Assembly (NCBI GenBank): GCA_016841185.1
Contig: JAENZQ010000012.1
Location: 1 to 64,000 of the forward strand
DNA: 64,000 bases
Direction of reading: 5' to 3'
Origin: Anaerovorax odorimutans
GTDB lineage: Bacteria; Bacillota; Clostridia; Peptostreptococcales; JAAYPU01
The translations under genes were made by a program, and so were the position numbers. The notes beneath the pieces are model-generated. The model searched no databases. It saw only the letters and a program-made list of their open reading frames with translations, and was not told the DNA's origin. Below, in pieces: positions 21,759-42,214 of this stretch (the stretch's first letter is position 1; every line of letters begins with the position of its first letter).

Positions 21759-21772
21759 GAAGGTGTGATAAT

Positions 21773-22081: not shown

Positions 22082-22085
22082 TTCT

Positions 22086-24251: not shown

Positions 24252-24255
24252 GTAA

Positions 24256-24840: not shown

Positions 24841-27374
24841 TGGAACATTATAATTTTAAAGGGACCAATCTAATAGACCAAAATTTACCGCTTAATGTGT
24901 CTCCTTATATGCGAAATGTTGATACCGAAAATGGCAACATAGCAAAATGTAAAGGAAGAATTGGTTTATTTGATTCTTTAGGTGCAAGTGGAATTAAAGG
25001 AATATATGCTTCAGACTTAGGCACATTCGACACTCTTTTATTTGGACATGGAACTTCAGTCTATAGACTGAGTGGCTCTGAACAATCTATCACTAAAACA
25101 CTTACAGCAGACTTTACAGGCACCCACACCAATACTGTTGCAAATAGTGATAAAGTTATATTAAGTGGACCCGGGCTTACTGTATCAACTATTACGCAAA
25201 ATGACCAAAATGGAACAATACGAGCAACTTCTAATATAGGGCAAACATTTAAAACTAATTCTGATATGTATGTTATTTCTTCTATTATGGTGTCTTTTAC
25301 AGTTCCTGAAAATCCGGGCAACAGAACATTAACATTATATACAGATACAAGCAAGACTGTTTCATTGGGCAGTGTTACTAATTATATTGATGCACTTAAC
25401 AATACATTTACTTTTTCCTCTCCAATTGAAGTAGAACCATTAACAACATATTATTTTGAACTATCAAATTTAGATAGCGAGGACTATTTACGTTATCATG
25501 ACGGGAACCTTTATTCAGATGGTATGTTATATCGAGGAGAAACAAGTTATACAGACTGGGATCTATTATTTGAAGTCAGCAGCGGTAATCAGTATTTATA
25601 TGACGATACAGAGGGGATTTACCTAACAGATATTATTGATTTAGGACAAACGCCAGTAGCAAGCATTTTAAATTTTAACATTTCGACAACTTCTGAATCT
25701 AATGTCAGTGTGTTTGTTAAAGGTAGCTCTAATGGAGAAACATGGTCTAATTGGGAAGCAAAATCAAACGAAGATTCTATTCCCCTTAAAAGATATTTAC
25801 AGTTAAAAGTAATTTTAACTACAGAGCAAGGCTATCTTACGCCGTCTTTCAATGATTTTACAATCACCTATACAAATACATTTGGTACAGCAACAGCATT
25901 TGATACAGGACTTTCAGGGGATATTATAAGGTTTTGTGACTATGGAGGAAAAACTTATTACTGTGATAACGGTGGCCCTAAATCTTACAATGGAACAACT
26001 GTCAAAACACTCGGAGTATTGGCACCTGAAACTACTTGTACTGTAGCAATTGGGTCCGGTGGTAATTTAGATGGAACATACACTTATAAGGTAACTTTTG
26101 TTGATTCAGATGGAGTAGAAGGAAATCCATCGGTATCGAGTTCAGGTGTCACAGTATCAAGCGAGAAAGTTTCAATTACCAATATTCCAACATCTACAGG
26201 CATGAATCGTAAAATATACCGGATGAGAACAGGAACTGCCTATTATTTAGTAGACACAATAGATGATGATACAACTACTACTTACACGGACAATAAAACT
26301 AACGACGAAGTAGAAATATCAAGCGGTCTATTAGAAATAGATAATAATCAGCCGCCTGATGCAACTATCGTATATGAGCATAAAGGTTATATGTTTTATG
26401 TCTCTGCAACCTACCCATCAAGATTGTATTTTTCTAAAGTTTACGGAACAAATGCAGATTATCCGCAAGCTGCTTACGAACAAGTTCCGACAACGAATTG
26501 GAAAGAACACCCAAGCCCAATTTTAGGCTTAAGATCATACGAAAATAAACTAATTGTTACAGGGCAAGACTTTACAGGGTTTTGGACAGGCTCAATATGG
26601 GGAGGAACTAACGACAACACGGCATGGCACCTGATAGACAACATCGGAGGGGTAAGCCACGAAGCTATGACTATATGTCAAACTTCCGAAGGGGCTATAT
26701 GTGCAATGGTGACAGAAACAGGAGTCAGAACCTTTTACCCAGCTCTTTACGAAGAAGGTTTACAAAGACTACCTTTAAGTTACGATATCCAACCTTTATT
26801 TGATGCAGGCAATTTAGATAATGCTTGGTGTCAATTTTACAGTTCAAGGTTATTTGTAGGATTTTCTTATTCGGAAGGAACGCCCGTAAATTACAATAAT
26901 ATAGTTTGTGTATATGATTTTAAACGAGGTGTATGGGATGCGCCCTGGGAATTTAATATCAGCCAAGCAGTAATCTATAACAATTTGCTTTATGGTGGTG
27001 GTTCAGACATTGGCAAAGTCTATGAAATGCTTTCGGGGTATACAAACGACGGCGAAGCAATCAATATGATATGCGATCTTAGAGGAGACACAGGAAAATA
27101 CGAAGCTTCAATCCAAAAGTTAAAAATTCATGTTAAAAATACAAGTGTGACAGATAACTTAACTATAGGAATGCAAGTTGATAGTAGCACGCTTTCAAAA
27201 ACACCTACAAGATGGAGAAATTCGGCTTCAAGTTATGGAAATCAGAATCTCATGGAAACTACACTCTCTATTAAAAGACGAGGGAGTTTTTACGGAATAA
27301 GAATAAGCGACAATTCCACAAACCCCATAGAAATTAATAAAATATTTGTTGATTATGAAGGTATCAAGGAGTGA
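24840..27374 (+). CDS. Large tail hub / nozzle protein, 844 aa
   Basis: The front MEHYNFKGTNLIDQNLPLNVSP and the N-I-A-K-C-K-G-R-I-G-L-F segment resemble openings of tail nozzle proteins of short-tailed phages. Residues about 400-480 are a fibronectin-III-like insert (TCTVAIGSGGNLDGTYTYKV). A propeller-like back half has A-T-Y-P-S-R-L-Y-F-S and G-S-I-W-G-G. It likely forms the tail tube or nozzle after the adaptor. No tail tube or tape measure gene is found elsewhere, which supports this. Confidence 0.65.
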   Translation: MEHYNFKGTNLIDQNLPLNVSPYMRNVDTENGNIAKCKGRIGLFDSLGASGIKGIYASDLGTFDTLLFGHGTSVYRLSGSEQSITKTLTADFTGTHTNTVANSDKVILSGPGLTVSTITQNDQNGTIRATSNIGQTFKTNSDMYVISSIMVSFTVPENPGNRTLTLYTDTSKTVSLGSVTNYIDALNNTFTFSSPIEVEPLTTYYFELSNLDSEDYLRYHDGNLYSDGMLYRGETSYTDWDLLFEVSSGNQYLYDDTEGIYLTDIIDLGQTPVASILNFNISTTSESNVSVFVKGSSNGETWSNWEAKSNEDSIPLKRYLQLKVILTTEQGYLTPSFNDFTITYTNTFGTATAFDTGLSGDIIRFCDYGGKTYYCDNGGPKSYNGTTVKTLGVLAPETTCTVAIGSGGNLDGTYTYKVTFVDSDGVEGNPSVSSSGVTVSSEKVSITNIPTSTGMNRKIYRMRTGTAYYLVDTIDDDTTTTYTDNKTNDEVEISSGLLEIDNNQPPDATIVYEHKGYMFYVSATYPSRLYFSKVYGTNADYPQAAYEQVPTTNWKEHPSPILGLRSYENKLIVTGQDFTGFWTGSIWGGTNDNTAWHLIDNIGGVSHEAMTICQTSEGAICAMVTETGVRTFYPALYEEGLQRLPLSYDIQPLFDAGNLDNAWCQFYSSRLFVGFSYSEGTPVNYNNIVCVYDFKRGVWDAPWEFNISQAVIYNNLLYGGGSDIGKVYEMLSGYTNDGEAINMICDLRGDTGKYEASIQKLKIHVKNTSVTDNLTIGMQVDSSTLSKTPTRWRNSASSYGNQNLMETTLSIKRRGSFYGIRISDNSTNPIEINKIFVDYEGIKE

Positions 27375-27378
27375 TAGC

Positions 27379-28536
27379 ATGTCTATTTACGACGAATTTA
27401 AAAAGCAAGAACAATACGAAAACGAGCAAAAGTATTTAGAAAAACTTCAAAAGTCAGGTTCAGAAGGTGAAAAAAAATGGGCAAATCAGCAAATGGGCGA
27501 TTTGCTGAATGCATATACCCAATTTAATCAGCCTAAAAAAACAACTAAAACAAAAATAAATAATTATCAATCTCCGAGATATGATGTGTTATCGTTCGAT
27601 GATGCTCTTTCAAGAGCATCTAAGTTAATTGACCCTCGCTTTCAGCAGATTAAAAATAACCTTGTTAGGAACATTAATGAAAAAAGAAAAAGCAGTCTTA
27701 ACAATTTAGCTTCCAGAGGTCAGGCAGTAGGTGGGCAACGACAAAGAATTGAAAACACATTAACAAGCGATGAAACATTACAAGCATCTAATTTAGGTCT
27801 ACAGGCTGATATAGCCAAAAACGAACTTGCTACTAATTTGGTCAATGAATCCCAACAGCAAGCAGAAGCCAGAGCAGAAAGAGACTATCAGCAATGGTTG
27901 AATCAGCAAAACATACTTAGGCAAGCAAGACTTGATGACTTTGACAGACAACAGTATGAGGATGCTTTAGACTGGCGTACATCTTCTAATAATCCTGAAT
28001 ATGTGGCTCAGCAGATGGCAAATAAATATTACCCACAAGAAACAGAAACCAATATAGCTTATAAAAATGCTATGATACAAAAAATGCTTGGTGGCGGCGA
28101 TGGAGGAACTCCAACTACTGAAACTGTAGACTTAAAACCGTTTAGAGATCACATTAAAAACAATATATATGGCAATAACGATGTTTTAGACACTGAAAAA
28201 GAAATAGACATATATACAAAAAATTTGAATCGTAATGGTTTTCCATTAGAAGCTGTTAATCAATTAAGGTTAGAATATGGTCTTGGACCCATAGGGCAAC
28301 AGAAAGAATTTAGACCATTTTTATCGGCTTTTGGAATACCTATTAATCCCTTTACAGTAAGTCCAACTCAACCAACGCAACAGCCAACTCAACAACCAAC
28401 ACAAAATTACGAGCAAGAGTTTATGAACCTTCAAACACCAGAAGAAGACAGAGCATACTTAGAAAGCCTATACAATCAAGGAGTACCCGAGAAAGAAATA
28501 AGACGAATTGCAAAACTTAAAGGTTATGAATTGTAG
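27379..28536 (+). CDS. Coiled, Gln-rich virion protein, 385 aa
   Basis: ATG at 27379 follows AAGGAGTGATAG; an upstream in-frame start at 27346 overlaps the previous gene without a site. The middle (about residues 85-210) is a long Gln/Arg-rich coiled coil, then a Pro/Thr/Gln repeat (TQPTQQPTQQPTQ), and an end domain with PEEDRAYLESLYNQGVPEKE. Composition and position fit an ejected or internal virion protein. Confidence 0.6.
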   Translation: MSIYDEFKKQEQYENEQKYLEKLQKSGSEGEKKWANQQMGDLLNAYTQFNQPKKTTKTKINNYQSPRYDVLSFDDALSRASKLIDPRFQQIKNNLVRNINEKRKSSLNNLASRGQAVGGQRQRIENTLTSDETLQASNLGLQADIAKNELATNLVNESQQQAEARAERDYQQWLNQQNILRQARLDDFDRQQYEDALDWRTSSNNPEYVAQQMANKYYPQETETNIAYKNAMIQKMLGGGDGGTPTTETVDLKPFRDHIKNNIYGNNDVLDTEKEIDIYTKNLNRNGFPLEAVNQLRLEYGLGPIGQQKEFRPFLSAFGIPINPFTVSPTQPTQQPTQQPTQNYEQEFMNLQTPEEDRAYLESLYNQGVPEKEIRRIAKLKGYEL

Positions 28537-28544
28537 GTGATAGC

Positions 28545-31500
28545 ATGACACTTAACTTTGACAACATTACAAAGAAAAAAACATTAAATTTTGATAATAT
28601 TACTAAAAATTACGGCATATATGGAAAAAAACTATCAGAAAGAGAACTTCAAAACTTTTCACAACAAGCCATGCTGTCGCCCAAACTCGGAAGAGAAATT
28701 GTAAAGAAAACTCCTGACTTAGGCACAACATTTAAACAAAAAACTGAGCAAGATGTTAAGAAAAACCCATTCATCACAGGAGCACTTCAAGGCTCAACCT
28801 ATGGAGATATCGAAGGCAATATCGAAAGGGTAATTGGAGACAAACTTAACATAGAGGACAGTAAAAAAAGCGGTGCATACAAAGCCGGGGAAATAGTTGG
28901 TACTATTGGACAATTTGCAAGCGGTTACGCCGGGGCAGGAGGAACAGTCGCAAGCGGTGCGTCTAAGCTTATACCTAAGGCATTACCAAAATTAGGAAAA
29001 ACAATTGCAACCGAAGCCGCTAAAGACCTAACAATCGGAACAGGACTTTCAGCTTTGCAAGGTGCTAAATCAGACTTAGAAGGGAAAGAACTTGCTAAGT
29101 ATATCGGTCAGAACTTAGTTATAGATTTACTGGCAGGCGGTGGCATTGTAGCAGGCGGCAAAGTATTTCGTAGTTTAAAGGCTCTTAAAGGGGCTACACC
29201 AAAAGAAATTGACGAAGTAGTACAAACGGTAGCCAAACAAACTCAACAGCCAGTAGAACAAGTTAAAAAGCAAGTAGATGAAGCCGTTAATACAGTATGC
29301 GCTCAGGAAAAATCATTAAAACAAGAAATGATAGATAAATACGGCTATATGAATGAAGGTGTAAAACCTGATAGAAAAATGGTTTTGCCTAAGAAAACAG
29401 ACAAAGATCAAGCAGTCAGTAAATACGCCAGAACTGTATCAGAATCTAAAAACATAACTGATGAAATGGCCAATAAAATTGAAGAAAGAATCGTAAAAGG
29501 TGATTTTTCACATGAAATTTTTACAGATAAAAAAGCTTTAAATAATGCCGAAAGTATTATTGAAAAAAACGGAATGTCAGGTGCTAAAAAAAGATGGGAC
29601 AGTATTGTTAATGGGAATAAAGTTGCAGATAAAACAGATATCGCATTAGGACAAAGACTTTTAACGGAAGCTGCTAATCGTGGAGATGTGGACGAAGTAC
29701 AAAGATTAGTATCTGATTTAGTTGTAGAAGGAACTCGAAGCGGTCAAAAAGTTCAGGCATTTTCAATGTTAAAGAAAATGACTCCGGAAGGTAAATTGTA
29801 TTATTTTGAAAAATTCATTCAAAAACAAAACGATGAACTACTTAAAAGATACGGTGATCGTGCGCCTGAAATTACTGTACCAAAAGATTTGGCTAATAAA
29901 CTTTTAAAAGCAACTACTCAAAAAGAAATCGAAGAAGTAGAAGAAGAAATAATTAAACAAATAGGTGCTCAAATACCTGCTAATTGGTACGATAAAATGA
30001 ATGCATGGCGTTATATGTCTATGCTTGCTAACCCTAAAACCCATATGAGAAATATAGTAGGAAATGCTTTGTTTGTACCTTTTAGAAAGTTCAGAGACAT
30101 TATAGGAACAGCACTTGAAGGGAAACTTGTTCCAGAAGGATTCGAAAAAACAAAAGCCATACTAAATCCCTTATCTAAACAAGATAAATCATTGAAAGAA
30201 TTTGCAAAAACTAATTTTGAAGCCAATAAAAAAGCTTTAACTTCTACCGGAAAGGTTAATGTTGACAATGAAATCTTAAAAAGCCGCAGAATTTTTAATA
30301 CTGAGCCTTTGGAAAAAATCCGTAAATTTAACTTTGAAATGTTAGACAAAGAGGATACTTGGTTTTTGAGACCAGCTTATATTGGCAGCATGTCACAGTA
30401 TATGAAAGCCAATAAATTGACACCTGAATTTTTAAAATCAGGGACCACCAAAGCTACAAAAGCTTTGGAAAAAGCACAGCAATATGCAGCAGAGCAAGCT
30501 TTAAAAGCGACGTATAGAGATGCTTCTGCGGTAGCTTCTGCTATAAGTAGATTTACAAATGCCCCAACGGACAATAAATTAAAAAAAGCAGGACAGATTG
30601 CAGTCGAGGGACTTCTTCCATTTAAGAAAACCCCTATTAATATTTTAAAAAGAGGATTAGAATATTCGCCAGGTGGGTTACTTAAAGGAATAAAAAATAT
30701 GACTTTAGATATTAAAAAAGGAACAATAAGTCCATCGCAAGCTATTGAGAATTTATCGCAAGGCTTAACTGGAACTGGCGTAATGATTTTAGGTGGCTAC
30801 CTTGCCAATTTAGGTTTAATTTCAGGCAGGAATCAGGATGATAGTTATAAAGTTCAATCCTTTGAATCTATGGAGGGGAAGCAAGAATATTCGTTCAAAA
30901 TAGGAGATACAACTTATACAATTGATTGGGTGGCACCAATGAGTATGCCGTTTTTTATGGGAGTTGAGTTACACAATTCTATGAAAAATAAAATGGACGC
31001 TAAAGGTGGGTTTGCAAGGTTTGTAAATGCAATGGCAGGAATAGGTGACCCAATATTTAATCTTTCTATGCTACAAGGTTTTAATCAATTGCTTGAAGGA
31101 TATGGCGGAAACTTAGGAACAGCACTTACCAAAACAGCTACTAATTACGGAGGGCAGTATGTGCCCACTATCGGAGGGCAAATTGCCCGAACTTTAGACC
31201 CAGTTAGGAGAACGACTTACGCATCAAAAGAAAGCACTTTAACTAAGCCCGGAGAACAATTTTTAAGAAAACAAATTGGGAAAGTGCCTTTTGCTTCTCA
31301 AAAATTAGAACCGTTTTTAGATCCGTTTGGTAGGGAACAAAAAACAGAAAATGTAGTCAGAAGAGCGTTTGAAAACTTTATAAGCCCGGGATATTTAAAT
31401 AGTGATGAATCTGGTAATGTAGAAAAAGAACTGGATAAGCTTTACAATGAATTAGGAGATACAACAATACTACCAAGTACAGCACCATCCTATAAAAGAC

Positions 31501-31706
31501 ATAATAATAAAACGATATATCTTACTCCAAAGGAAAGAACACGCTATCAAAAAACATACGGTCAGTACGCTTTAGAAAAACTTAATAATTTAATATCCCA
31601 AGATGCATATAAGAAACTGCCAAAAGAAAGAAAAGCTTACTATATAAGCAAAATTTACAGAGAAGCAACTAAGCAAGCAACAGATGAACTAATTAATAAT
31701 AGGTAA
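28545..31706 (+). CDS. Very large virion protein, 1,053 aa (probable ejection protein)
   Basis: The front contains a short duplication (TLNFDNITKKK then TLNFDNITKN). A glycine/alanine-rich stretch at about residues 110-205 (GEIVGTIGQFASGYAGAGG, LLAGGGIVAGG) may be membrane-active. Long helical parts follow, and a second Gly/Ala-rich hydrophobic part lies near 740-765. Such layouts occur in internal virion proteins that enter the host envelope with the DNA. It is the last virion gene before lysis. No enzyme motif is seen. Confidence 0.6.
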   Translation: MTLNFDNITKKKTLNFDNITKNYGIYGKKLSERELQNFSQQAMLSPKLGREIVKKTPDLGTTFKQKTEQDVKKNPFITGALQGSTYGDIEGNIERVIGDKLNIEDSKKSGAYKAGEIVGTIGQFASGYAGAGGTVASGASKLIPKALPKLGKTIATEAAKDLTIGTGLSALQGAKSDLEGKELAKYIGQNLVIDLLAGGGIVAGGKVFRSLKALKGATPKEIDEVVQTVAKQTQQPVEQVKKQVDEAVNTVCAQEKSLKQEMIDKYGYMNEGVKPDRKMVLPKKTDKDQAVSKYARTVSESKNITDEMANKIEERIVKGDFSHEIFTDKKALNNAESIIEKNGMSGAKKRWDSIVNGNKVADKTDIALGQRLLTEAANRGDVDEVQRLVSDLVVEGTRSGQKVQAFSMLKKMTPEGKLYYFEKFIQKQNDELLKRYGDRAPEITVPKDLANKLLKATTQKEIEEVEEEIIKQIGAQIPANWYDKMNAWRYMSMLANPKTHMRNIVGNALFVPFRKFRDIIGTALEGKLVPEGFEKTKAILNPLSKQDKSLKEFAKTNFEANKKALTSTGKVNVDNEILKSRRIFNTEPLEKIRKFNFEMLDKEDTWFLRPAYIGSMSQYMKANKLTPEFLKSGTTKATKALEKAQQYAAEQALKATYRDASAVASAISRFTNAPTDNKLKKAGQIAVEGLLPFKKTPINILKRGLEYSPGGLLKGIKNMTLDIKKGTISPSQAIENLSQGLTGTGVMILGGYLANLGLISGRNQDDSYKVQSFESMEGKQEYSFKIGDTTYTIDWVAPMSMPFFMGVELHNSMKNKMDAKGGFARFVNAMAGIGDPIFNLSMLQGFNQLLEGYGGNLGTALTKTATNYGGQYVPTIGGQIARTLDPVRRTTYASKESTLTKPGEQFLRKQIGKVPFASQKLEPFLDPFGREQKTENVVRRAFENFISPGYLNSDESGNVEKELDKLYNELGDTTILPSTAPSYKRHNNKTIYLTPKERTRYQKTYGQYALEKLNNLISQDAYKKLPKERKAYYISKIYREATKQATDELINNR

Positions 31707-31880
31707 TTATGAATAGTAAATGAATTTTACAACATTAAAGATCATAGCAAGAAAAAACCAAGCTACAAACTGAAAACCTGCATTATCTTCATTGTCTGTT
31801 ATGCCACATAAAATTAAAACAAATATAGCGATTGGTAAGCTTCTGGCAATACTATGGCAAAAAATATAAACAAAATCCAT
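31707..31880 (-). CDS. Minus-strand small membrane protein, 57 aa
   Basis: ATG at 31880 on the minus strand follows AAAGGAGG. The product holds two membrane helices (about residues 12-26 and 36-52). It has its own promoter (31903-31931) and lies opposite to the virion and lysis genes. It may be expressed in the lysogen. No family is recognised. Confidence 0.6.
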   Translation of the reverse strand: MDFVYIFCHSIARSLPIAIFVLILCGITDNEDNAGFQFVAWFFLAMIFNVVKFIYYS

Positions 31881-31902
31881 ATATGCAAACCTCCTTTTCC
31901 TT

Positions 31903-31931
31903 AGTATATGCATATATGACAAATTTTACAA
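31903..31931 (-). promoter_or_regulatory. Promoter of the minus-strand membrane gene
   Basis: On the minus strand, TTGTAA (31931-31926) and TATACT (31908-31903) lie 17 bases apart, 23 bases before the start codon. Confidence 0.6.
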
Positions 31932-31932
31932 T

Positions 31933-31962
31933 ACAGAGAGAAAAAATTCTCTCTGTTTTTAT
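31933..31962 (+). terminator. Terminator after the virion genes
   Basis: ACAGAGAGAA at 31933-31942 pairs with TTCTCTCTGT at 31947-31956, followed by TTTTT. Confidence 0.8.
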
Positions 31963-31982
31963 TTTAAGAGAGGTATAAGGGT

Positions 31983-32222
31983 ATGGAATATGTAGAAAAA
32001 ACATTGGAGAATCACGAAAGAAGAATAACAAAAAATGAAAGTGATATATCTGGACTAAAAATTACAGACGGAAAACTAACCACTTACATAGAAAACCTTG
32101 CAAAGTCTATCGACAACTTATCATCGTGGATTAAGACATTCATTATAGTTGCGTTTACAGTTCTTTTTGCAATTGCCGGGGCAGGGTTAACTTTTATAAT
32201 CTGGTACATACAAAAGGGGTGA
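31983..32222 (+). CDS. XhlA-like hemolysin/holin-associated protein
   Basis: Product of 79 aa. The front coil is HERRITKNESDISGLKITDGKL, and the back is one membrane helix (about residues 53-75). This is the XhlA layout known from phage PBSX, where it works with a holin and amidase in lysis. It stands directly before the lysin gene. Confidence 0.75.
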   Translation: MEYVEKTLENHERRITKNESDISGLKITDGKLTTYIENLAKSIDNLSSWIKTFIIVAFTVLFAIAGAGLTFIIWYIQKG

Positions 32223-32226
32223 ACGT

Positions 32227-33438
32227 ATGGCTTTTCAAATGGCTAAAAGTGGTCAAAGATACTTTGAAATTATGAATATACCACAATGGCACGAAGCAGG
32301 CTACACAGGTAAAGGAATAAAAATATTTGAAGTAGAATACGATACAGACCATTGTCAACAAGTATTTGAAGCAGGCAAAATCGTGGCACCAGATGCAGAA
32401 TTTTACAACCGGGAAGGAATTAGGAGAGAAGATTTACTTGATTATGTAGATCATATAAAACCCAACATTGTAGCAATGGCACAAGATTTTAATATGGCTA
32501 ATTACGAATGGTTTGCTAAAGGATTACACGAAAGAGGTATTCCTTTTTTTAAGTCAGCCGATAATGACGGAGATTTAATTAAACCCAATGAATTAGCATA
32601 CTCGCCGTACGTTATGACTATTGGAGCTATAAGCAGTCATGGAAACAAGGCGAACTATTCAGAATACGGGGAGGCTTTGGATTTTGTAGGATTTCCGATA
32701 ATTATAAGTGGCACATCGATAACACAAATGACAAGTGGGGCTGCATTAACGGCTTTACTCATGCAGCGATATGGACAAATGACACCTTATCAAGTTTATT
32801 GCTATTGGCAGAATCATTGTAAAGATTTAGGGGAGCTGGGATTTGATATATATACTGGATATGGAATGCCGGTGCTTCCGGATGTAAAGGAGGTTTATGA
32901 AATGAATAAACCAAACAAAATCATACTACATCATTCGGCAACTGACGGTGGAACTTTTGAATCTATTAAAAAATACCATGTTGAGCATAACGGATGGGAC
33001 GATATAGGATACCACTACTTAATACAACAAGATGGAAGTTTGCATAAAGGCAGAAATGAAAAAACGGTAGGAGCACATTGTTTAGGACAAAATGATTCTT
33101 CTATTGGTATATGCTTAGTCGGGAACTTTGACAAATACGAACCAAACGACAAGCAAATGAAATCACTTAACGATTTAATAATCGACATTAATATGAGATT
33201 AGGCATAACAGAAATACAAGGTCACAATCACTACAGCGAAAAGACATGTCCGGGAATATATTTCAGATGGAAGGATGTTGTAAAATTGGAACAGAAAAAA
33301 GAACAAGTATCTGATTGGGCAAAAGAAGCATGGAATAAAGCAGTTAAAAAAGGAATTAATGACGGACAAGGACCTAAAAACCCAGTTACAGAAGAACAAA
33401 TGATGGTTTTTTTTGATAGATTAGGTTTGCTTGATTAA
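32227..33438 (+). CDS. Lysin: degenerate subtilase-like domain fused to an amidase
   Basis: Product of 403 aa. Residues about 15-220 resemble a subtilase: GYTGKGIKIF, IVAPDAEFYN, P-Y-V-M-T-I-G-A-I, and ISGTSITQMTSGAALTALLM, which keeps the Ser of the GTS motif. The usual D-T-G segment is replaced and the Asp and His regions are shortened, so protease activity is doubtful. Residues about 230-355 are an Amidase_2 domain (I-I-L-H-H-S-A, DDIGYHYLIQQDG, GHNHYSEKTCPG) with zinc ligands in place. The end (WAKEAWNKAVKKGINDG) is an SLH-like wall-binding repeat. The amidase would cut the peptidoglycan stem peptide. Confidence 0.85.
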   Translation: MAFQMAKSGQRYFEIMNIPQWHEAGYTGKGIKIFEVEYDTDHCQQVFEAGKIVAPDAEFYNREGIRREDLLDYVDHIKPNIVAMAQDFNMANYEWFAKGLHERGIPFFKSADNDGDLIKPNELAYSPYVMTIGAISSHGNKANYSEYGEALDFVGFPIIISGTSITQMTSGAALTALLMQRYGQMTPYQVYCYWQNHCKDLGELGFDIYTGYGMPVLPDVKEVYEMNKPNKIILHHSATDGGTFESIKKYHVEHNGWDDIGYHYLIQQDGSLHKGRNEKTVGAHCLGQNDSSIGICLVGNFDKYEPNDKQMKSLNDLIIDINMRLGITEIQGHNHYSEKTCPGIYFRWKDVVKLEQKKEQVSDWAKEAWNKAVKKGINDGQGPKNPVTEEQMMVFFDRLGLLD

Positions 33439-33470
33439 GAACAAACGTTTGAGAATGTGAGTTCTTTTTT
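33437..33470 (+). terminator. Terminator after the lysin gene
   Basis: AAGAAC at 33437-33442 pairs with GTTCTT at 33461-33466, followed by TTTT. The loop contains AAACGTTT, so the fold may be larger. Moderately convincing. Confidence 0.55.
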
Positions 33471-33504
33471 ATTGCGATAAAACAAGACAACCTATAGAAA
33501 GTTA

Positions 33505-33550
33505 TTACTAATATATAAAAATTAAATGTAGGGCAAATTAGAGCCTTATA
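33505..33550 (-). repeat. Copy B of the dispersed inverted repeat (partner at 8587-8632)
   Basis: Reverse complement of copy A; the core 33516-33542 matches in 26 of 27 bases. It lies in the gap between the lysin and the holin-like gene, so it forms part of the latter's 5' leader. Confidence 0.75.
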
Positions 33551-33566
33551 GAAAGGAATTAATGCA

Positions 33567-33752
33567 ATGAATAAATTTTTAGAAAATATTGCAAGTCTTA
33601 TAAAGGTAAAAACAATAATTACCTTCATGATAACAGGCACAGTTGTGTATTTGGGAATAAAGGGAAGTATAGAAGCAAAAGATATCATGCTATTAGCCGG
33701 CATGGTTTTTACATACTTCTTCAACAAAGATACAAAAGACGGAGGGCAATAA
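33567..33752 (+). CDS. Small holin-like membrane protein, 61 aa
   Basis: ATG at 33567 after AAAGGAATT. The product MNKFLENIASLIKVKT has a membrane helix at about residues 17-32 and a second hydrophobic stretch near 39-52. Similar small proteins stand beside lysins in clostridial phages and are taken as holins. A terminator overlaps its end. Confidence 0.6.
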   Translation: MNKFLENIASLIKVKTIITFMITGTVVYLGIKGSIEAKDIMLLAGMVFTYFFNKDTKDGGQ

Positions 33753-33765
33753 GCCCTCTTTTTTA
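33742..33765 (+). terminator. Terminator after the holin-like gene
   Basis: GAGGGC at 33742-33747 pairs with GCCCTC at 33753-33758, followed by a T run. It closes the lysis unit. Confidence 0.8.
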
Positions 33766-33776
33766 TTGGAGGTATT

Positions 33777-35144
33777 ATGGAATTAAATGATAGAATGTAC
33801 TATTTATGGCAACAAGGAAAATCATTTAAAGAAATACAAGAAGAACTTAAACTTAACTTATCAACAGGTGCTATAAAAAAGAGAATATACCGAATTAAAA
33901 ATAAAAACGTTGACATAAATAAAATAGAAGGAGAAGAAGAACCAAAACCTCAATATGAAGAAGTTGAAAACGGATATAGAATATACTATGGAAAACAACG
34001 TAGGCATAATGTGTTTATAACTTTTAACGACTTAGAAGAAGCATTAAACCTTTACTGTATAGCACATCTTACTTTAAATCAAGTATCATTAAAAATGAAT
34101 CTTACCAGACGTGAATTTTACGCAATCAAGACAGCTTTTGATATCACAAAAGATTCTATGCCATTTACACCTAAACAGATTGACTTTTATACTGCTGAGG
34201 AACTGGCTGAAAAGTACAGAATTAAAAAGAAACAATATGCACTTACTAAGATAGAACAAAATAAAAACAAAGACATAGAAAACCGAATTAAGCAAATGGA
34301 CACTGTTGATTATTGGCATAAAGAAATTTGTAATAGAGTAAATCAAATACAAGCTGAACCTTATCAAATAACAAAACGCAGAAAAAATAATGAAGAATTA
34401 TTCGTGGCTTATAATGCAGATGTTCACGCAGGGTTAGAAGTTGACAATTATTTTAATAAATATAATATTGAAATTATGCACGAACGATTTAAAAAATTAG
34501 CCGAAGGAATTATTGATAATGTAGAAAATAAAACAATTTATATAGCAGACTTAGGAGATACCGTACACGGAATTATACACGGAAGCGTTCAAAAGTATAG
34601 TACATGGGTAAACAATGCAGTTACAGAGGTAATAAGAGGTTATGAGAGTTTATTTCTTACTCTTATACAGCAAGGTTACGAAGTGCATTTTACAAAAGTA
34701 AACGGATCGCATGAAAGCATAGAAAAGTCAAAACAAGAAAGAACAGAAGAAGAATCATTTGGTAATTTTATTTATGACATGCTTGAATGGAAATACGGAA
34801 AGTTTAAAAACCTACATTTCATACCTAAATTAAAAGGTTTAAATGCTTCTATTATTCCTATATTTGATTACTCAACTCTTTTAATTCATGGCGATAATAA
34901 CAGTTTAAATAAATTAAAAGATGCTGATAGGTTGTTCAAGGAACACAATGTAAAAGAAATAAACGCCGCACACTTTCATCATAGAAAAGTAGAAGATTTT
35001 AACGAAATGACCGTACATTATAACGAACCTTTTTGCGGTACCGACCAATACGCAGGAAATAAATTAATGTCAAGTGGTTTTGGCACAAGGTTAGTACAAT
35101 ATACGCCAGAAGGCAGAGGAAATGAATTATTGATAAGATACTAA
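33777..35144 (+). CDS. Calcineurin-like metallophosphoesterase with N-terminal HTH
   Basis: Product of 455 aa. Residues 5-45 form a helix-turn-helix (WQQGKSFKEIQEEL, S-T-G-A-I-K-K-R-I-Y-R-I). The back half has the phosphoesterase motifs in order: ADVHAG, LGDTVHG, NGSHES, LLIHGDN and AAHFHHRK. These match the two-metal site, with Ser in the usual GNHE position (GSHE). The substrate may be DNA, RNA or a nucleotide. It is the only + strand gene between lysis and the right end, a typical place for accessory genes. Confidence 0.75.
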   Translation: MELNDRMYYLWQQGKSFKEIQEELKLNLSTGAIKKRIYRIKNKNVDINKIEGEEEPKPQYEEVENGYRIYYGKQRRHNVFITFNDLEEALNLYCIAHLTLNQVSLKMNLTRREFYAIKTAFDITKDSMPFTPKQIDFYTAEELAEKYRIKKKQYALTKIEQNKNKDIENRIKQMDTVDYWHKEICNRVNQIQAEPYQITKRRKNNEELFVAYNADVHAGLEVDNYFNKYNIEIMHERFKKLAEGIIDNVENKTIYIADLGDTVHGIIHGSVQKYSTWVNNAVTEVIRGYESLFLTLIQQGYEVHFTKVNGSHESIEKSKQERTEEESFGNFIYDMLEWKYGKFKNLHFIPKLKGLNASIIPIFDYSTLLIHGDNNSLNKLKDADRLFKEHNVKEINAAHFHHRKVEDFNEMTVHYNEPFCGTDQYAGNKLMSSGFGTRLVQYTPEGRGNELLIRY

Positions 35145-35170
35145 AGCCCCTTAATTGGGGCTATTTTTAT
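35145..35170. terminator. Bidirectional terminator between convergent genes
   Basis: AGCCCC at 35145-35150 pairs with GGGGCT at 35157-35162, with T-rich bases after it and A-rich bases before it. It serves the phosphoesterase and the minus-strand genes. Confidence 0.75.
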
Positions 35171-35402
35171 TGACTAAATAATGTAAACCTACAATAGAAA
35201 CCGAAGCAAATAATAATATTTGCGCGAATCTGTACCAAATATAATTTAGCTCCGCCCCTATATTTTTTAAAGCAGGAATACTATATAAGCTTGGTCTTAA
35301 GTCTATAATAACAGGCAAATAATAACCCCAGTATGCGGCTATAAAAACAAGCCATCCTAAAGTAATAAAAAAGCCAATTTTAGACATCGATTTGTTCTCC
35401 AT
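35151..35402 (-). CDS. Minus-strand membrane protein, 83 aa
   Basis: ATG at 35402 follows CGGAGGAAC on the minus strand. The product has two to three membrane helices (about residues 10-30 and 54-72). It overlaps the previous minus-strand gene by 23 bases. No family is recognised. Possible lysogeny function such as superinfection exclusion, inferred from place and type only. Confidence 0.6.
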   Translation of the reverse strand: MENKSMSKIGFFITLGWLVFIAAYWGYYLPVIIDLRPSLYSIPALKNIGAELNYIWYRFAQILLFASVSIVGLHYLVNKNSPN

Positions 35403-35706
35403 ATTGTTCCTCCGTTTTGCAAAATAAAATTGTAAAAATAGCACGCACGATCACTACTAAAAAATAAGCCATTACTGCTACATTGTATATAATAAAAAAA
35501 TCTCCAGTTATTTTAAAGTAAACGTACATTAAATATAATTCTGAAATAACAGGAAAGAAAAAAGCCATAACGCCGCCTATTAATCCATTTCCTAAAAAGA
35601 TAGCATATACTGTCCATAGGTGTAAGGCGATACCTCCTATATATGTGCCAATCCAAAGAATAACAGTAAAAAATCTTATAATTCCCTTTGATACAGTGTT
35701 CAACAT
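35380..35706 (-). CDS. Minus-strand multi-pass membrane protein, 108 aa
   Basis: ATG at 35706 follows AAGAGGTGA on the minus strand; a GTG nine bases upstream lies in that site. Three or four membrane helices fill the product (about residues 10-30, 38-52, 55-63 and 73-92). The tail is charged (KTEEQYGEQIDV). Paired with the next membrane gene. No family is recognised. Confidence 0.6.
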   Translation of the reverse strand: MLNTVSKGIIRFFTVILWIGTYIGGIALHLWTVYAIFLGNGLIGGVMAFFFPVISELYLMYVYFKITGDFFIIYNVAVMAYFLVVIVRAIFTILFCKTEEQYGEQIDV

Positions 35707-35788
35707 ATCGTTCACCTCTTACACATATAATCTCTAATATTTCCATATTATCATAAAAATTTGTAAAAATATAGAAGAAATAAAATTT

Positions 35789-35878
35789 TTATCTTTGTAC
35801 AAAAAAAGCAATCATGCCAGTAATGAAAGATATTAATATTAATTTTACCCAAAAGCTTGTAATTACTTCATCTTTCAT
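35789..35878 (-). CDS. Minus-strand membrane micropeptide, 29 aa
   Basis: ATG at 35878 on the minus strand is preceded by AAGGAGGGG, an excellent binding site. The peptide is a single membrane helix (residues 9-26) with a charged front and end. The strong site argues for a real gene. Confidence 0.5.
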   Translation of the reverse strand: MKDEVITSFWVKLILISFITGMIAFFVQR

Positions 35879-35905
35879 TGTACCCCTCCTTATCACAGTT
35901 TTTAA

Positions 35906-35927
35906 ATTATTTATCAATTATTTATCA
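35906..35927 (+). repeat. Tandem 11-bp repeat near the right prophage end
   Basis: ATTATTTATCA occurs at 35906-35916 and again at 35917-35927. Repeats of this length close to a prophage end may be arm-type integrase binding sites. Confidence 0.5.
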
Positions 35928-36056
35928 CAAAACATATATCTAAAACGTTACAAAACATAAAAAATATTAACTATAAACAACAATTACAAATATTGAAATT
36001 TAAACATATAAACTACAATCAATCGTCGTAAAGAACAAATATCTACTAATATGTAA

Positions 36057-36197
36057 AAACATTATATTGTTTTGGTCCAAGTGGCGATTCTTATAGCAAT
36101 TGCAATAGGAATGGGCATTCTTTTCAAAGGAAAAATAGGAGAGTTTATTTCGGGAGTATTCAATGATCTGGTAGGCTCTGATTTCAGCAATATGTAG
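36057..36197 (+). pseudogene. C-terminal remnant of a Flp1-type pilin gene at the right prophage end
   Basis: From the stop at 36054-36056 an open frame runs to TAG 36195-36197. Its coding-like part (from about 36075) reads VQVAILIAIAIGMGILFKGK then IGEFISGVFNDLVG, the C-terminal part of a Flp1-type IVb pilin. The front, including the processed leader, is missing. TadE-like genes follow at once, the normal partners of this pilin. The missing part is expected at the far left end of the prophage. The att core probably lies near 36060-36090. Confidence 0.7.
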
Positions 36198-36222
36198 GTG
36201 TAACATGGGAGAAGAAAATAGT

Positions 36223-36771
36223 ATGAAGAGCAGAGGGAGTATTCTGGTAGAAGCCGCACTGATATTTCCTGTTATTATATTGGTAATTGTTGCTATGATC
36301 TATATTCTTGTTTATATGTATCATCAAACATGTCTGCAGTCTGTTATAAATATGGTATCAGAACGTAAAGGTTATTATCTGGCCGGAAGTATACTGACTG
36401 AAGATTTAGTGCCTGAGAATCGATTATATTACTATTTTTACAGGAATTCAGATTTGATTGAAAATATTGAGCCATGTCTAAAGAATTATTACCAGAAGTA
36501 TACCTTGTCTCGAAAGCAGAAAATTAAAATGTCCTTTTCGCATCATCTCATGTATTCTCAAATGGAGGTGATTGCTTATGATACCTACAGTATCCCATTT
36601 CTCAATCATACGGATACAGAGATCAGGAAAAGAATTAAGGCGGTTTATTACGTGCATGATGAAGCAGAATATGTCAGAAATGTGGATTTAGTTTTAAATG
36701 AAAGTTTTTCAGAGATTGATGATATTTTTGAAAAGGCTGTTCAAAGATCAGAAAGAATAGGTAAAGATTAG
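36223..36771 (+). CDS. TadE-like pseudopilin, 182 aa
   Basis: ATG at 36223 is chosen because GGGAGAAGA precedes it; an in-frame ATG at 36205 is weaker. The front reads MKSRGSILVEAALIFPVIIL, a TadE-type opening of a short basic part, G-S-x-x-x-E and a membrane helix (about residues 8-32). The rest is extracytoplasmic. It would be a minor component of a Tad pilus. The next gene follows 12 bases later. Confidence 0.75.
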   Translation: MKSRGSILVEAALIFPVIILVIVAMIYILVYMYHQTCLQSVINMVSERKGYYLAGSILTEDLVPENRLYYYFYRNSDLIENIEPCLKNYYQKYTLSRKQKIKMSFSHHLMYSQMEVIAYDTYSIPFLNHTDTEIRKRIKAVYYVHDEAEYVRNVDLVLNESFSEIDDIFEKAVQRSERIGKD

Positions 36772-36783: not shown

Positions 36784-39222
36784 TTGAGAAGGATAAGATC
36801 ACAGGAAGGCTCCGTTGCGGTGTTTCTATGTATCATAATTGTAAGTCTGTTTATCTTTGCAGGAGTTTTGACGGATGTTGCAGGCATCCATACTGCGGAG
36901 ATTCAGATTCAGAGGGCGTTGGATATTGCGGCGCGTTCTGTTCTTTCCGAATATGACCGTAACCTGAAAAATGAATACGGACTATTCGGGACTTGCCAAA
37001 GCGAAGCAGAGATGGAAGAAAAAATCGAAGCATATACCAACAGAATGCTTAATCCGGAGTTGAATATGCCTTCTATCGAAAATGCATCAGAATTATATGA
37101 CTTTCGTATTGAAAATATTTTTGTTGAAACTGATGGACGATCTCTGAATAATCTTATTATTTTTGAGGATCAGGTGCTGGAATTTATGAAATACCGGGCA
37201 CCTCTGGGACGCATTTATGAGTTTTCGAAGGAAGTAGAAAGCGTAAATAAAGCTTCCAACAGTTTGGAGTTGATCAATAAAGCCACAGACGTGTTTAAAG
37301 AGCTGGCAAATTTTGAGGCGTATCTGAATCATTTAAGAAAATATAGTGATGGCTGGTATTGTGAAGAAGGAAAGAAATTTACGGTGTATGGACCTTTTAT
37401 TAAAAGTATTGCGGTTCAAGGTTCTGATAAATATATAGACAGTGTTTATCCATTACTTGCGGCAGATGAAAAGAAAGAGCTGGCATGTCTGGTTTATTCA
37501 AAAAAGCAACTCGGTGTGATGTGGAAGGAATATTTGAGGGATATTGATTTATATATTGAGTGCCGATGTAAGATAAAATGTATGGAAGAATTGCAAGAGG
37601 GCATAAAAACTGCAAAAAAAAATTCTGAAGATGAAGAGAAGGCCGTTGATTATGACTGGTTTTTAAAAAGCATAGCTGCTGAAATCAAAAAATGTAAAAA
37701 TACTATTAAGATAATAAAGCTTCATAAATATTATGATTTTTTTAATGAACGTAAAGATTCGTGTAATAAAGCACTTTCATTGATAAGGAAAGCTATCGTT
37801 TCGCTGAAAAACACTGAAAGACTGGTGAATGAAGTTGAAGCATTTATGAGCCAATATGATGGTTGTATATTAGAGCCGATAAAAGCAACAATGGCAAATG
37901 ATATAAAATCAATCCGAAATCTTATGGGAAGCCAGGCTGAAAGCGTTCTGACACATACTAAAAACATAATAGAAAGCAACGGTGAAGCCATTGAAGAGCA
38001 GATGCAATGTTTTGATGAAGAAGCTGTAATCGAACAGTTGGAAGGGAAGGCTTCAAGACTGGGGAAGCATTGGGAGTCAGGATTTAAACAGAATATGAGA
38101 GATGTTATTTCCGAAGAAATAGAGAAATTGCTCGAGCAAGATACGAAGTATCATTTGTTAAAAGAGAGATATAAAAAAGCTTTTAATACTTTTATGACCC
38201 GGTATAATTCGGAATACAGCATAGAGCCTTTCTCCCCATCACAAATAAAACACCTGACTGAAAGTGATGTCAGTGGGGAGATAAATATTTCCGATTTTAC
38301 AGATAGAGATGCACAAGAGAGAAATTTAAAGAAAGGCCGGGAACTTAGGAATCAATATATTATAGAGAGGCTTCCCTCTTACCTTTATGGAACAACAGAC
38401 GGAGCAAGTGGCATGAGCCATACAATCGTAAATATATTAGGCCGGTTAAAAGGAAATGTATTAAAGGGAGAGTGCTTGAGAGATAATCTTTACGTCAATG
38501 AATATATTCTCAATTTTTTCAAAAACCATATAACAAGTGCCGGCAAAAATGAAAGTTTTTTTGAACATGAAGCAGAGTATGTTCTATATGGAGATTTACG
38601 GGATGAAAATAACTTTTCCAGGTTTAAGAATCATCTTTTACTTTTAAGAAGCGGTTTGAATCTTGTGCATATTTACAGCGATCCGCTGAAAAAAGCACAG
38701 GTTCTGGAAGCAGCTGCAGCCCTTTCAGGCGGAACCGGTACTTTTCTTCTGCAGTTTATTATTGCCTCGGCGTGGGCGGAGGCAGAAGCGGAGGAAGACA
38801 TAAGCAGATTAATAGAGGGAGAAAACGTTGCATTTATAAAGAGCAAAGATGACTGGGTATTATCATTTGAAAATTTCCTTTTTAATAAAGGAAAGAAGCA
38901 TGATGTTAATATCCAAAAGAAAACCGGCTCGGATATTGATTTTCAGCCCAATTCATTTTCTTATGAAGATTATCTCAGAATATTTTTCCTGATGCACAAT
39001 AAAGAAATAAAGTTTTATAGAATTTTGGATTTGATTCAGATAAATATGAAGGGCAGGCATTATAAGGAATTTGAGACAAAGAATTTTAGCGGAAGCCTTA
39101 AAGTGAAAGCAGAGGTTTCAATCAAGTGCAGATTTCTTACAGTTCAATGGATGCCTGAGTTTATCAGATATTCATCTGCATCAAGAAAAAGTATAAAAGC
39201 TGAAGTTCAGCACAGTTATTAA
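36784..39222 (+). CDS. Large Tad-locus surface protein (DUF5702-like), 812 aa
   Basis: TTG start at 36784. The front MRRIRSQEGSVAVFLCIIIV is a prepilin-like membrane anchor (helix about residues 11-30), followed by GIHTAEIQIQRALDIAARSV and then a long, mainly helical, charged body. The anchor plus 'all-alpha' body is typical of the large DUF5702 protein of clostridial Tad loci, standing where TadG stands elsewhere. Probably assembled at the cell surface with the two TadE-like proteins. Confidence 0.75.
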   Translation: MRRIRSQEGSVAVFLCIIIVSLFIFAGVLTDVAGIHTAEIQIQRALDIAARSVLSEYDRNLKNEYGLFGTCQSEAEMEEKIEAYTNRMLNPELNMPSIENASELYDFRIENIFVETDGRSLNNLIIFEDQVLEFMKYRAPLGRIYEFSKEVESVNKASNSLELINKATDVFKELANFEAYLNHLRKYSDGWYCEEGKKFTVYGPFIKSIAVQGSDKYIDSVYPLLAADEKKELACLVYSKKQLGVMWKEYLRDIDLYIECRCKIKCMEELQEGIKTAKKNSEDEEKAVDYDWFLKSIAAEIKKCKNTIKIIKLHKYYDFFNERKDSCNKALSLIRKAIVSLKNTERLVNEVEAFMSQYDGCILEPIKATMANDIKSIRNLMGSQAESVLTHTKNIIESNGEAIEEQMQCFDEEAVIEQLEGKASRLGKHWESGFKQNMRDVISEEIEKLLEQDTKYHLLKERYKKAFNTFMTRYNSEYSIEPFSPSQIKHLTESDVSGEINISDFTDRDAQERNLKKGRELRNQYIIERLPSYLYGTTDGASGMSHTIVNILGRLKGNVLKGECLRDNLYVNEYILNFFKNHITSAGKNESFFEHEAEYVLYGDLRDENNFSRFKNHLLLLRSGLNLVHIYSDPLKKAQVLEAAAALSGGTGTFLLQFIIASAWAEAEAEEDISRLIEGENVAFIKSKDDWVLSFENFLFNKGKKHDVNIQKKTGSDIDFQPNSFSYEDYLRIFFLMHNKEIKFYRILDLIQINMKGRHYKEFETKNFSGSLKVKAEVSIKCRFLTVQWMPEFIRYSSASRKSIKAEVQHSY

Positions 39223-39239: not shown

Positions 39240-40109
39240 ATGAAAAAACCAACGAATGATAATGGGTCTTTAACCGTAGAGGCTGCTATTTTTCTTCCAA
39301 TATTCATGATTTCTGTTTTTACCATAGGATTCATCATGAAATTATTCTGGGTACAGGAATGCCTTCAGCATGCTATTTCTGATGAAATCCTAAAAATGGC
39401 TTCCGAGAGTTATCTGGAATATAGAATGTGCCCGGACAATATTCCGGAAATATTAGGGAAACTGGATGGGGCAGGCGGGCGGAATGATCTGCGTGAAAAG
39501 ATCAAGCAGCATTTTACCGCAGATACTTTTGAGTCGATGCATATCCTGAAAGGCCCTGATATCATCGAATACAGGTATTTATTTGATGGCCGGTCGGAGA
39601 ATTATCTGATAGATGAACCCTATCAGATAAATACGGACTACTTGATCGAAGCAGTAAGTATGAGTAAAGTCAGAGTACCTTTTTCAATCCGTTTTATCAG
39701 CGATATGGTACTTACACAGAGGGTCGTTGCAAGAAGTTGGGTCGGAACCGAAAAGATAAGCAGGCCGATGGGTTTCAATGAAATGGCAGAAGAAGGGGAA
39801 AAAGAAAAGATTGTTTATGTTTTCCCGCGGGCAGGAGAAAGATACCATGAAAAGAGCTGTTTGCTGGTCTCCAACTATCCTACATTGAAAATCTTGACCA
39901 ATGCGATAAAAAATAAATTCAGACCGTGTAAACTCTGCGATGCAGGGCAGCTCGATATTGGCTCATCTGTATTTATTTTTGAAGAAAGCGGAGAGGTATA
40001 TCATTCGGAAAATTGTGTGCTGGTGGATAAATATGTGATACCGATGGACTTAAAAGAAGCTGAAAATCAGGGATATACCCCCTGTAAAAAATGCCGCCCA
40101 GGCAATTAA
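39240..40109 (+). CDS. TadE-like protein with two C-terminal Cys modules, 289 aa
   Basis: The front is TadE-like (NGSLTVEAAIFLPIFMIS, helix about residues 11-34). From about residue 190 come two copies of one module: Y-H-E-K-S-C ... R-P-C-K-L-C and Y-H-S-E-N-C ... T-P-C-K-K-C. Each has a His-x3-Cys and a Cys-x2-Cys, thus four possible metal ligands. The same module is known at ends of some secreted nucleases. Its fusion to a pilin-like anchor is unusual. It may bind a metal or a cell-wall partner. Confidence 0.75.
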   Translation: MKKPTNDNGSLTVEAAIFLPIFMISVFTIGFIMKLFWVQECLQHAISDEILKMASESYLEYRMCPDNIPEILGKLDGAGGRNDLREKIKQHFTADTFESMHILKGPDIIEYRYLFDGRSENYLIDEPYQINTDYLIEAVSMSKVRVPFSIRFISDMVLTQRVVARSWVGTEKISRPMGFNEMAEEGEKEKIVYVFPRAGERYHEKSCLLVSNYPTLKILTNAIKNKFRPCKLCDAGQLDIGSSVFIFEESGEVYHSENCVLVDKYVIPMDLKEAENQGYTPCKKCRPGN

Positions 40110-40274: not shown

Positions 40275-41483
40275 ATGAGTGAAAATATGGACCCGAATGG
40301 TAATAATGAGGCAATATTATGCCGGGCTTATCTGATTTGTACATTTGATGGGAGAAAGCATCCCATAGACGGAGATAAACGGTTTAATATCGGAAGGAAA
40401 ACGACTGATAACGATGTCATTGATTTATCTATGGATGAGCCAATCATCAGCAGGAAACATGCAGTCATTATCCTTGATAATAATAAATTCTTTTTGTGTG
40501 ATACGGATTCGAAAAATGGAACTTATATAAATGGTAATAAACTTGAGCCAAATAAAAAGTATTTACTTAAAAATAATGATATCCTGGAATTTTCAAAAAT
40601 AAAATATAGATTCGAAAGATATGAAAAGAAAGAAGGCAAATTCAGCTATGATTTCGGGGATATTATGTTTATCGATGTATTTGGAAAAAGAAGAATATGT
40701 GTAGAACTTCATGAAGACAGGAGAATCATACCATACCAATATAAAATGATGAATTCAAACTGTATAAACGGGTTGTTATCTATAGCAGTTATGGATAATG
40801 AAGGGCGTTCTCGTATTTATTATGATATAGAAAAAATGGAATCCTTGTCATCCCAGATAAATGCGAAAGGTTATCTTTCAAAAAAACAGTTTATTCAAAT
40901 TCTTTTAGATGTTTTCCAGACAATACGAAATATAAGGGATTATCTTTTAAATCCTGATGCACTTTTATTGAATCCTGCATTTATTTTTTACGATCATGAT
41001 GAAAAAAAACCGCTTTTAGTTTACTGTCCCTTTGATATAACAGCCGAAAGACATATGTCCTTAAAAGTTTTTATTTCCCAATTGACTGCTTATATTTCCG
41101 AGGAAAGAGAAAAGGATTTTCAGATGCGTGTCTTAAAGGCAGTCTCAAACGAGAACTTTAACTTAAGCGATTTTAAAAATATTATTTTGAATGAACAGGA
41201 AGAGTGTACACCGGATTCGGATCATTATCCAAAAGAGAAAAAAAATTCGTGGTTATTCAATAGTACTAAGAAGATGCAGAGTAATTTTGACAAGAAAATG
41301 ATTATTTTGATTCAGGCAGTATTGATTTTTATAACAGGGTGCATAATCATCAGCAGAAAGCTGGACACGCATCAGTACATAGGTTTGATGATCATTGCAG
41401 CAGCCATTGATATAGGAGTGATATATAAATATCCCAAGTTTATCGAAGAAAGAAGAAGAGAAAAATGGAAAGAGGGAGACTGA
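40275..41483 (+). CDS. FHA-domain membrane protein, 402 aa
   Basis: The FHA domain spans about residues 20-95 with FNIGRKT, P-I-I-S-R-K-H-A and SKNGTYINGNKL, the residues that bind phosphothreonine. A central domain resembles regions found in FHA proteins of Tad loci (R-I-I-P-Y-Q-Y-K-M-M-N-S-N). Two membrane helices lie near the end (about 343-361 and 370-388), followed by a basic tail. It overlaps the kinase gene by 19 bases, so it is a likely phosphorylation partner. Confidence 0.85.
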   Translation: MSENMDPNGNNEAILCRAYLICTFDGRKHPIDGDKRFNIGRKTTDNDVIDLSMDEPIISRKHAVIILDNNKFFLCDTDSKNGTYINGNKLEPNKKYLLKNNDILEFSKIKYRFERYEKKEGKFSYDFGDIMFIDVFGKRRICVELHEDRRIIPYQYKMMNSNCINGLLSIAVMDNEGRSRIYYDIEKMESLSSQINAKGYLSKKQFIQILLDVFQTIRNIRDYLLNPDALLLNPAFIFYDHDEKKPLLVYCPFDITAERHMSLKVFISQLTAYISEEREKDFQMRVLKAVSNENFNLSDFKNIILNEQEECTPDSDHYPKEKKNSWLFNSTKKMQSNFDKKMIILIQAVLIFITGCIIISRKLDTHQYIGLMIIAAAIDIGVIYKYPKFIEERRREKWKEGD

Positions 41484-42214
41484 TCGGTAAGAAATACAGA
41501 GTAATAGCCCGAATGAAAAGCGGAGGAACAAAGAAAGTCTTTCTTGCAGAGCATATCCGCCTTCACACATTTTGGATTATTAAAGAATGGAGAAATTGGG
41601 AATCAACATCCATTCCTATGGAGGCCATGATATTGTCCAAACTTAAACATCAGGATATTCCCAGGGCCGTGGATTATTTTGAGGAAAACAGCTACGGGTA
41701 TCTCATCGAGGAGTATATTGAAGGGGACATTCTTGAAGACGTCATCAAAGAGAGAGGGAAAATTCAAAGCCGACTTGGTGTTGAATGGATGTATCAGCTC
41801 TGTAAGATCTTAGAGTATATCCATAGTATAAAGCCACATCCCATTATACATGGCGATATTAAACCTTCAAATATTATTGTATCACCTGATAAGACCATTA
41901 AGCTCATAGATTTTGGCGCTTCGAAAGCTAAAAGCGTAAGTGATTGGCGGTATTGCATTACAGAGGGGTATTCTGCACCTGAGCAGTATTTTTCAACGGC
42001 TATAGATCAGAGGTGTGACATTTACGGTGTAGGAGCGGTCCTATATTATATTTTTGCAGGAAAACATCCGGAGAAGAAGATTCGGCTTGATCCGGGATCC
42101 GGTTTTTCAGAAAATGTATCTGCTGTTATTAATAAGTGTACTTTTTTTTTAAAAGAATTACGATATCATGATGTCATGGAATTGGGGGAGGATCTTAAAA
42201 AAATTAATAGTTAG
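41465..42214 (+). CDS. Serine/threonine protein kinase, 249 aa
   Basis: Soluble Hanks-type kinase with the ATP lysine at about K40 (FWIIKEW), catalytic HGDIKPSN at 129-136, DFG at 149-151 and S-A-P-E-Q-Y at 170-174. The glycine loop is shortened (MKSGGTKKVFLAE). The HxD arginine is replaced by Gly (HGD), so the activation segment may need no phosphorylation. No membrane or PASTA part is present, unlike the cell-wall kinases. Overlap with the FHA gene suggests a two-part switch for pilus assembly. Confidence 0.85.
   Translation: MERGRLIGKKYRVIARMKSGGTKKVFLAEHIRLHTFWIIKEWRNWESTSIPMEAMILSKLKHQDIPRAVDYFEENSYGYLIEEYIEGDILEDVIKERGKIQSRLGVEWMYQLCKILEYIHSIKPHPIIHGDIKPSNIIVSPDKTIKLIDFGASKAKSVSDWRYCITEGYSAPEQYFSTAIDQRCDIYGVGAVLYYIFAGKHPEKKIRLDPGSGFSENVSAVINKCTFFLKELRYHDVMELGEDLKKINS

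Follow-up and report, generated by a model that had tools for sequence, protein, structure and literature searches.

For a small number of host genes, prophages are known that split the gene and restore it when they excise. One of these is sigK of Bacillus subtilis, a split gene that is rejoined in frame by site-specific recombination; the skin element that splits it is defective, and a serine recombinase removes it in the mother cell, which is terminal. Another is comK of Listeria monocytogenes, which controls the Com pseudopili. The comK prophage, phi10403S, is a complete phage located in a gene linked to a type IV pilus-kind of surface machine (PMC6872733). In Staphylococcus aureus, phiSa3int inactivates the toxin gene hlb in the lysogen and precise excision restores the gene, the excision having been measured; active excision of phiSa3mw is likewise reported to restore the interrupted hlb (PMC6597384). 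A related precedent is dusA, a protein-coding gene in whose 5' part a single family of integrases targets a conserved site, in over 200 bacteria (PMC4482086).

The DNA analyzed here (the window) is a stretch of 64,000 nucleotides from Anaerovorax odorimutans, in which a temperate phage (40.5 kb or more) has very likely integrated site-specifically into the Val-Gln-Val codons of the pilin gene flp1, giving a reversible loss of the pilin at a recurrent integration hotspot. The Tad pilus is an adhesion surface machine, and here its pilin is the phage target. As in hlb, the gene would be inactivated in the lysogen and restored by precise excision, which here is predicted from sequence. Whereas phi10403S interrupts a master regulator, this phage interrupts the pilin itself, and in contrast to skin it is a complete-looking phage with a tyrosine integrase and no apparent tie to sporulation. 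The initial annotation had likened the locus to the sigK and comK switches; the likening to sigK goes too far, as the recombinase is of the tyrosine type here and of the serine type in skin, and the S. aureus hlb prophage, whose active excision was demonstrated, is the better comparison. Unlike the one family of dusA integrases, the flp1 site is used by two distant integrases, each found in one genome. In an open-access literature collection that lacks most subscription journals, we came across no paper describing a phage integrated into a Tad/Flp pilin gene. Gene-splitting prophages as a kind are known; the pilin target and its convergent use appear to be new. At the flp1 site two ideas can be tested directly: control of piliation by the phage state, and removal by phages of their own receptor through their choice of integration site.

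Two pilin gene halves at the prophage ends

At the right prophage end a 46-residue frame (36057-36194, stop codon 36195-36197) reads KHYIVLVQVAILIAIAIGMGILFKGKIGEFISGVFNDLVGSDFSNM and has neither an ATG nor a GTG start at its front. The frame aligned with positions 12-42 of the 49 positions of Pfam PF16982 (Flp1_like) with an E value of 4e-4 (4.3e-4), a match that lies under the gathering score because the pilin front is absent, whereas a family-specific profile (A1) matched the rear half at positions 16-53 with an E value of 9.6e-19. These matches bear out the earlier proposal of a C-terminal Flp1-type pilin part at the boundary of phage and Tad genes, and confirmed the frame as the 3' part of a predicted Flp1-like pilin gene that lacks its front. 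A TadE-like gene does follow the pilin (PF07811), but not at the distance of 25 bases first given; that spacing fits the second TadE-like ATG (36223), whereas the first ATG (36205) is 7 bases past the pilin stop.

The first base of the window is also base 1 of contig C86, one of the 88 contigs of the genome, and the left prophage end is therefore outside the window. A T2SSF protein search of the same genome found contig C21, which carries tadZ, tadA, tadB, tadC, then ATG...MIKRIKDLLKNQKGMEMVQV, then a tyrosine integrase gene on the opposite strand, and which ends 4.6 kb past tadC. The pilin front thus lies between tadC and the integrase, at the left prophage end, where the initial annotation had supposed that the other half might be. 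The integrase is followed by two repressor-type genes, an excisionase-type gene (TIGR01764, above cut-off), an Ant-like protein gene (antirepressor) and a DUF7666 gene, of which only the beginning is present. The C21 end and the C86 start are both within this DUF7666 phage gene, in copies of a 27-bp repeat (AGTGCAGCAACCAATACAGGC...) that a genome-wide search found at these two contig ends only. We therefore infer that the two contigs, each carrying one end of the prophage, are joined via a single prophage, which spans at least 40,486 bp, with about 4.4 kb on C21 and 36 kb in the window. The location of the halves on different contigs of an 88-contig genome could also be read as an artefact of misjoined contigs or of a mixed population, but both junctions are well inside their contigs (C21:57547 of 61960; C86:36073), the repeat common to the two contig ends is confined to them, and the second case given below is on a single contig. 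An assembly artefact is highly improbable.

A shared att core had been predicted near 36060-36090. The 10-bp sequence TGGTCCAAGT is found at 36073-36082, its one occurrence in the window, and once in the C21 stretch L016. Joining the flanks at this core gave MIKRIKDLLKNQKGMEMVQVAILIAIAIGMGILFKGKIGEFISGVFNDLVGSDFSNM, an intact 57-aa pilin in frame, with a predicted attB junction of ATGGAGATGGTCCAAGTGGCGATT and a predicted attP junction of TATTGTTTTGGTCCAAGTATCTATTG. The rejoined pilin matched PF16982 with an E value of 8.5e-8 vs 4.3e-4 for the rear half alone, and the attL fusion gave no match. The score of the rejoined pilin (32.0 bits) is just under the cut-off of 33.5, whereas that of its orthologue in genome G001 (37.5 bits) is above it; G001 is the nearest relative, from the same family, and its uninterrupted flp1 is 86% identical to the rejoined pilin. 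An intact flp1 elsewhere was looked for as a refutation, and a whole-genome search, profile included, found no second copy of the pilin. The gene has the domain and the tad context of the Flp1 type, with tadC before it, tadE after it and a PF16982 match via the G001 orthologue, and it is both interrupted and restorable in frame, as in active lysogeny. These data support the proposal that the prophage interrupts a putative Flp1-type (type IVb) pilin gene of a Tad locus, with the other half at the left prophage end.

The phage would insert into flp1 of the tadZ-tadA-tadB-tadC-flp1-tadE group by means of its own tyrosine integrase. No complete pilin could then be made in the lysogen, because the front half runs into an unrelated 30-residue tail (a 50-aa frame without a Pfam match) and the rear half has neither a leader nor a good start. 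The prophage would also separate the Tad genes downstream of it from any promoter that precedes tadZ, and excision by the integrase and the excisionase would restore flp1 exactly. A promoter scan of the prophage right end gave no signal above chance, and we therefore make no claim of a phage promoter driving tadE.

The window is phage-like throughout from position 1 to about 35.7 kb. The prophage has an integrase adjoining att, an identical core at both ends, and structural, packaging and lysis genes, as expected of a temperate prophage; judged from these genes it looks complete rather than domesticated. Note that the two membrane-protein ORFs adjoining attR are oriented opposite to the late genes and are possible lysogeny-expressed genes. 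Also on the phage are genes for a DNA methyltransferase of the cytosine-5 type and for another methyltransferase-like protein (3149-3664 and 3860-4750). On C21, the tadC product (L016:5910-7367) has 485 residues and is longer than the usual TadC, its T2SSF domain being preceded by an atrophied Ig-like domain (PF20578, aBig_2). A second pair of T2SSF-domain proteins is encoded elsewhere in the genome (G000:C77:23916-25304), at another type IV pilus or secretion-type locus.

Table 1 Features of the prophage and the adjoining Tad genes. Positions are those of the window unless prefixed by L016.
Feature	Position	Strand	Evidence or remark
27-bp repeat copies (assembly break)	1..51	+	same repeat terminates C21, in the same DUF7666 phage gene
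prophage, right 36 kb	1..36082	+	phage genes; left ~4.4 kb = C21:57547-61960 = L016:7548-11961
tyrosine integrase	L016:7570-8733	-	PF00589, E 8e-19; directly adjoins attL core 7548-7557
terminase large subunit	15450..16937	+	phrog_2, E 1.3e-31
portal protein	17187..18893	+	phrog_156
major head protein	19750..20592	+	phrog_267, E 6e-44
XhlA/holin-like protein	31983..32222	+	weak match, below cut-off
endolysin, Amidase_2	32227..33438	+	Pfam and phrog matches
exonuclease-like protein	33777..35144	+	phrog_284; last + strand gene before attR, then terminator-like hairpin
two small overlapping membrane-protein ORFs adjoining attR (35151-35444, 35380-35715)	35151..35715	-	without Pfam or PADLOC match
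attR core, 10 bp	36073..36082	+	identical to attL core L016:7548-7557 = C21:57547-57556
flp1 3' part (C-terminal 37 residues + stop)	36083..36197	+	5' part at L016:7499-7557 on C21
TadE-like pseudopilin gene, intact	36205..36771	+	PF07811 above cut-off; 58% identical to relative G001
DUF5702 / TadE/G-like gene, intact	36784..39222	+	domain match
second TadE-like gene, C-terminal Ada-type zinc-binding motif	39240..40109	+	domain match
FHA/DUF6382 gene	40275..41483	+	domain match
serine/threonine kinase-like gene, last of Tad gene group (end 42214)	41465..42214	+	translation reading

A second prophage at the same codons

Genome G162, from another family of the same order, has the two halves of flp1 on a single contig of 141 kb, separated by 34,027 bp, and the gene is split at the same codons as in the window, at a 15-bp core, GGTGCAGGTGGCGAT. 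The G162 front reads MLTNKKGMEMVQVAI followed by a stop and adjoins a tyrosine integrase at attL, and a TadE-like gene comes after the rear half. The 34-kb prophage between them is myovirus-like and encodes contractile-tail proteins (sheath phrog_1480), whereas no sheath was recognised among the genes tested of the window's phage. The terminase, portal and head families also differ between the two phages, the integrases are 24% identical, and a comparison of 133 vs 193 frames gave four significant protein pairs, including the integrases and a methyltransferase. As the G162 phage differs in type, integrase and nearly all genes, two unrelated phages have reached the same codons independently, and because they did so in two bacterial families the site is probably a real, recurrent hotspot and not an accident. 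At the G162 attR (L217/L218, C6 about 9350) a phage-side in-frame ATG (MCEKVQVAIL...) precedes the pilin rear half; a leaderless pilin could in principle arise there, and no good ribosome site was seen.

Alignment A1 (21 sequences) has 13 invariant columns, including G14-M15-E16 and V18-Q19-V20, and both att cores cover the Val-Gln-Val codons. Coding sequence as conserved as this makes a natural attB, and the convergence can thus be explained with no benefit to either party. Temperate phages often integrate inside conserved genes, also without regulation. The most likely reading of these sequences is therefore integration into the most conserved stretch of flp1 with reversible loss of the pilin, and probably a passive one, the pilus being dispensable and the insertion having no adaptive role for phage or host. 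The convergence of two phages on one gene, which hints at some benefit, argues in the other direction. Such a benefit could be receptor removal, in which a phage that adsorbs to Tad pili would shield its lysogen from further infection by integrating into the pilin gene. Some phages of other bacteria do adsorb to Tad/Flp pili, and use of the same pilin gene by two unrelated phages is consistent with this possible role, but the att core is the most conserved stretch of the gene, which is enough alone for convergence, and we regard receptor removal as rather unlikely.

Occurrence among relatives and the question of a switch

A profile made from 21 Flp1 sequences was run on 394 genomes of the order plus 80 more of the G162 family, and the weakest matches were read closely. 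Split copies are expected to score below whole copies, the known rear halves giving 64-69 bits vs about 75-103 bits for nearly all whole copies. By hand count, about 270 species genomes had a clear pilin match among the matches listed, and flp1 was split by a prophage in two of these, the window's genome and G162; no third case was seen among these matches. In four genomes a draft contig ends inside flp1 (G330:C104, G775:C41, G808:C110 and G821:C230), two of the breaks being near the VQV codons; a mixture of integrated and empty sites could cause such breaks, as can ordinary fragmentation. Two other candidates were rejected: G363 has an N gap instead of a split pilin, and the weak match in G292 is within a 243-aa frame that is not a pilin.

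Searches with the integrase of the window's phage found no close relatives in viral contigs and none at E<=1e-60 in the 394 order genomes. The best relative in 391 genomes of the class was 39% identical, and none of those fetched adjoins a pilin half. Relatives of the G162 integrase were at best about 40% identical, and none adjoins a pilin half; the site preference of the integrase family is known from these two phages alone. We also scanned 85,000 species genomes for GMEMVQV fronts with a non-G base directly after them, a pattern that needs ATG codons and would miss G162 (G after GTG). Of the 97 stretches with a match, 80 were fetched, and all 80 were unrelated genes such as lipB, or chance matches. 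A similar scan of viral contigs yielded chance matches only.

The rarity of the interruption among relatives is consistent with passive loss. It argues against a regulated switch, in which excision bound to a certain condition and without cell death would allow Tad pili to be made only then, as proposed for the comK and hlb prophages. Several features would suit such an arrangement: excision is predicted to restore the gene exactly, the phage encodes an integrase and a protein of the Xis family, the rest of the Tad genes are intact, the same codons serve two unrelated phages, and phiSa3mw provides a reported case of active excision that restores hlb (PMC6597384). However, a prophage is present in only 2 of the approximately 270 pilin-bearing species genomes among the matches listed, the window's phage appears complete and not domesticated, and the two phages are not alike, which gives no indication of an arrangement kept for long between host and phage. 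A comK- or hlb-style switch is possible, but we consider it quite unlikely. The lack of decay in the other Tad genes does not sit well with passive loss either, and suggests recent insertion or continued use after excision. A broader proposal, which we put forward tentatively and as improbable, is that the importance of the pilus to the phage is what makes the VQV codons a convergent attachment site, with lysogens switching the pilus off, by receptor removal or by control of piliation through the phage state, and excision switching it on, giving a phage-driven phase variation of Tad pili in Clostridia-type bacteria.

Pilin type

Counted from the prepilin cleavage site, canonical Flp pilins have E or D at +5 followed by Y at +6 (PMC3244431). 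In contrast, position +5 is Q in each of the 21 aligned Flp1-like pilins (G^M-E-M-V-Q-V), and so the protein is Flp-like rather than canonical Flp and its description as the major subunit, made in the initial annotation, is provisional. Like the Gram-positive Flp and Flp-like pilins, the window's pilin is small and hydrophobic and is encoded in the tad operon after tadC and before tadE; as in the Flp-like group, tyrosine is absent at +6, whereas the E or D at +5 of the Gram-positive Flp pilins is an invariant Q in its own group (PMC3244431). The PDB contains no solved relative of the pilin. Clostridia tad loci without a recognisable pilin have been reported (PMC3244431), and Q5-type pilins might be what was missed in those loci.
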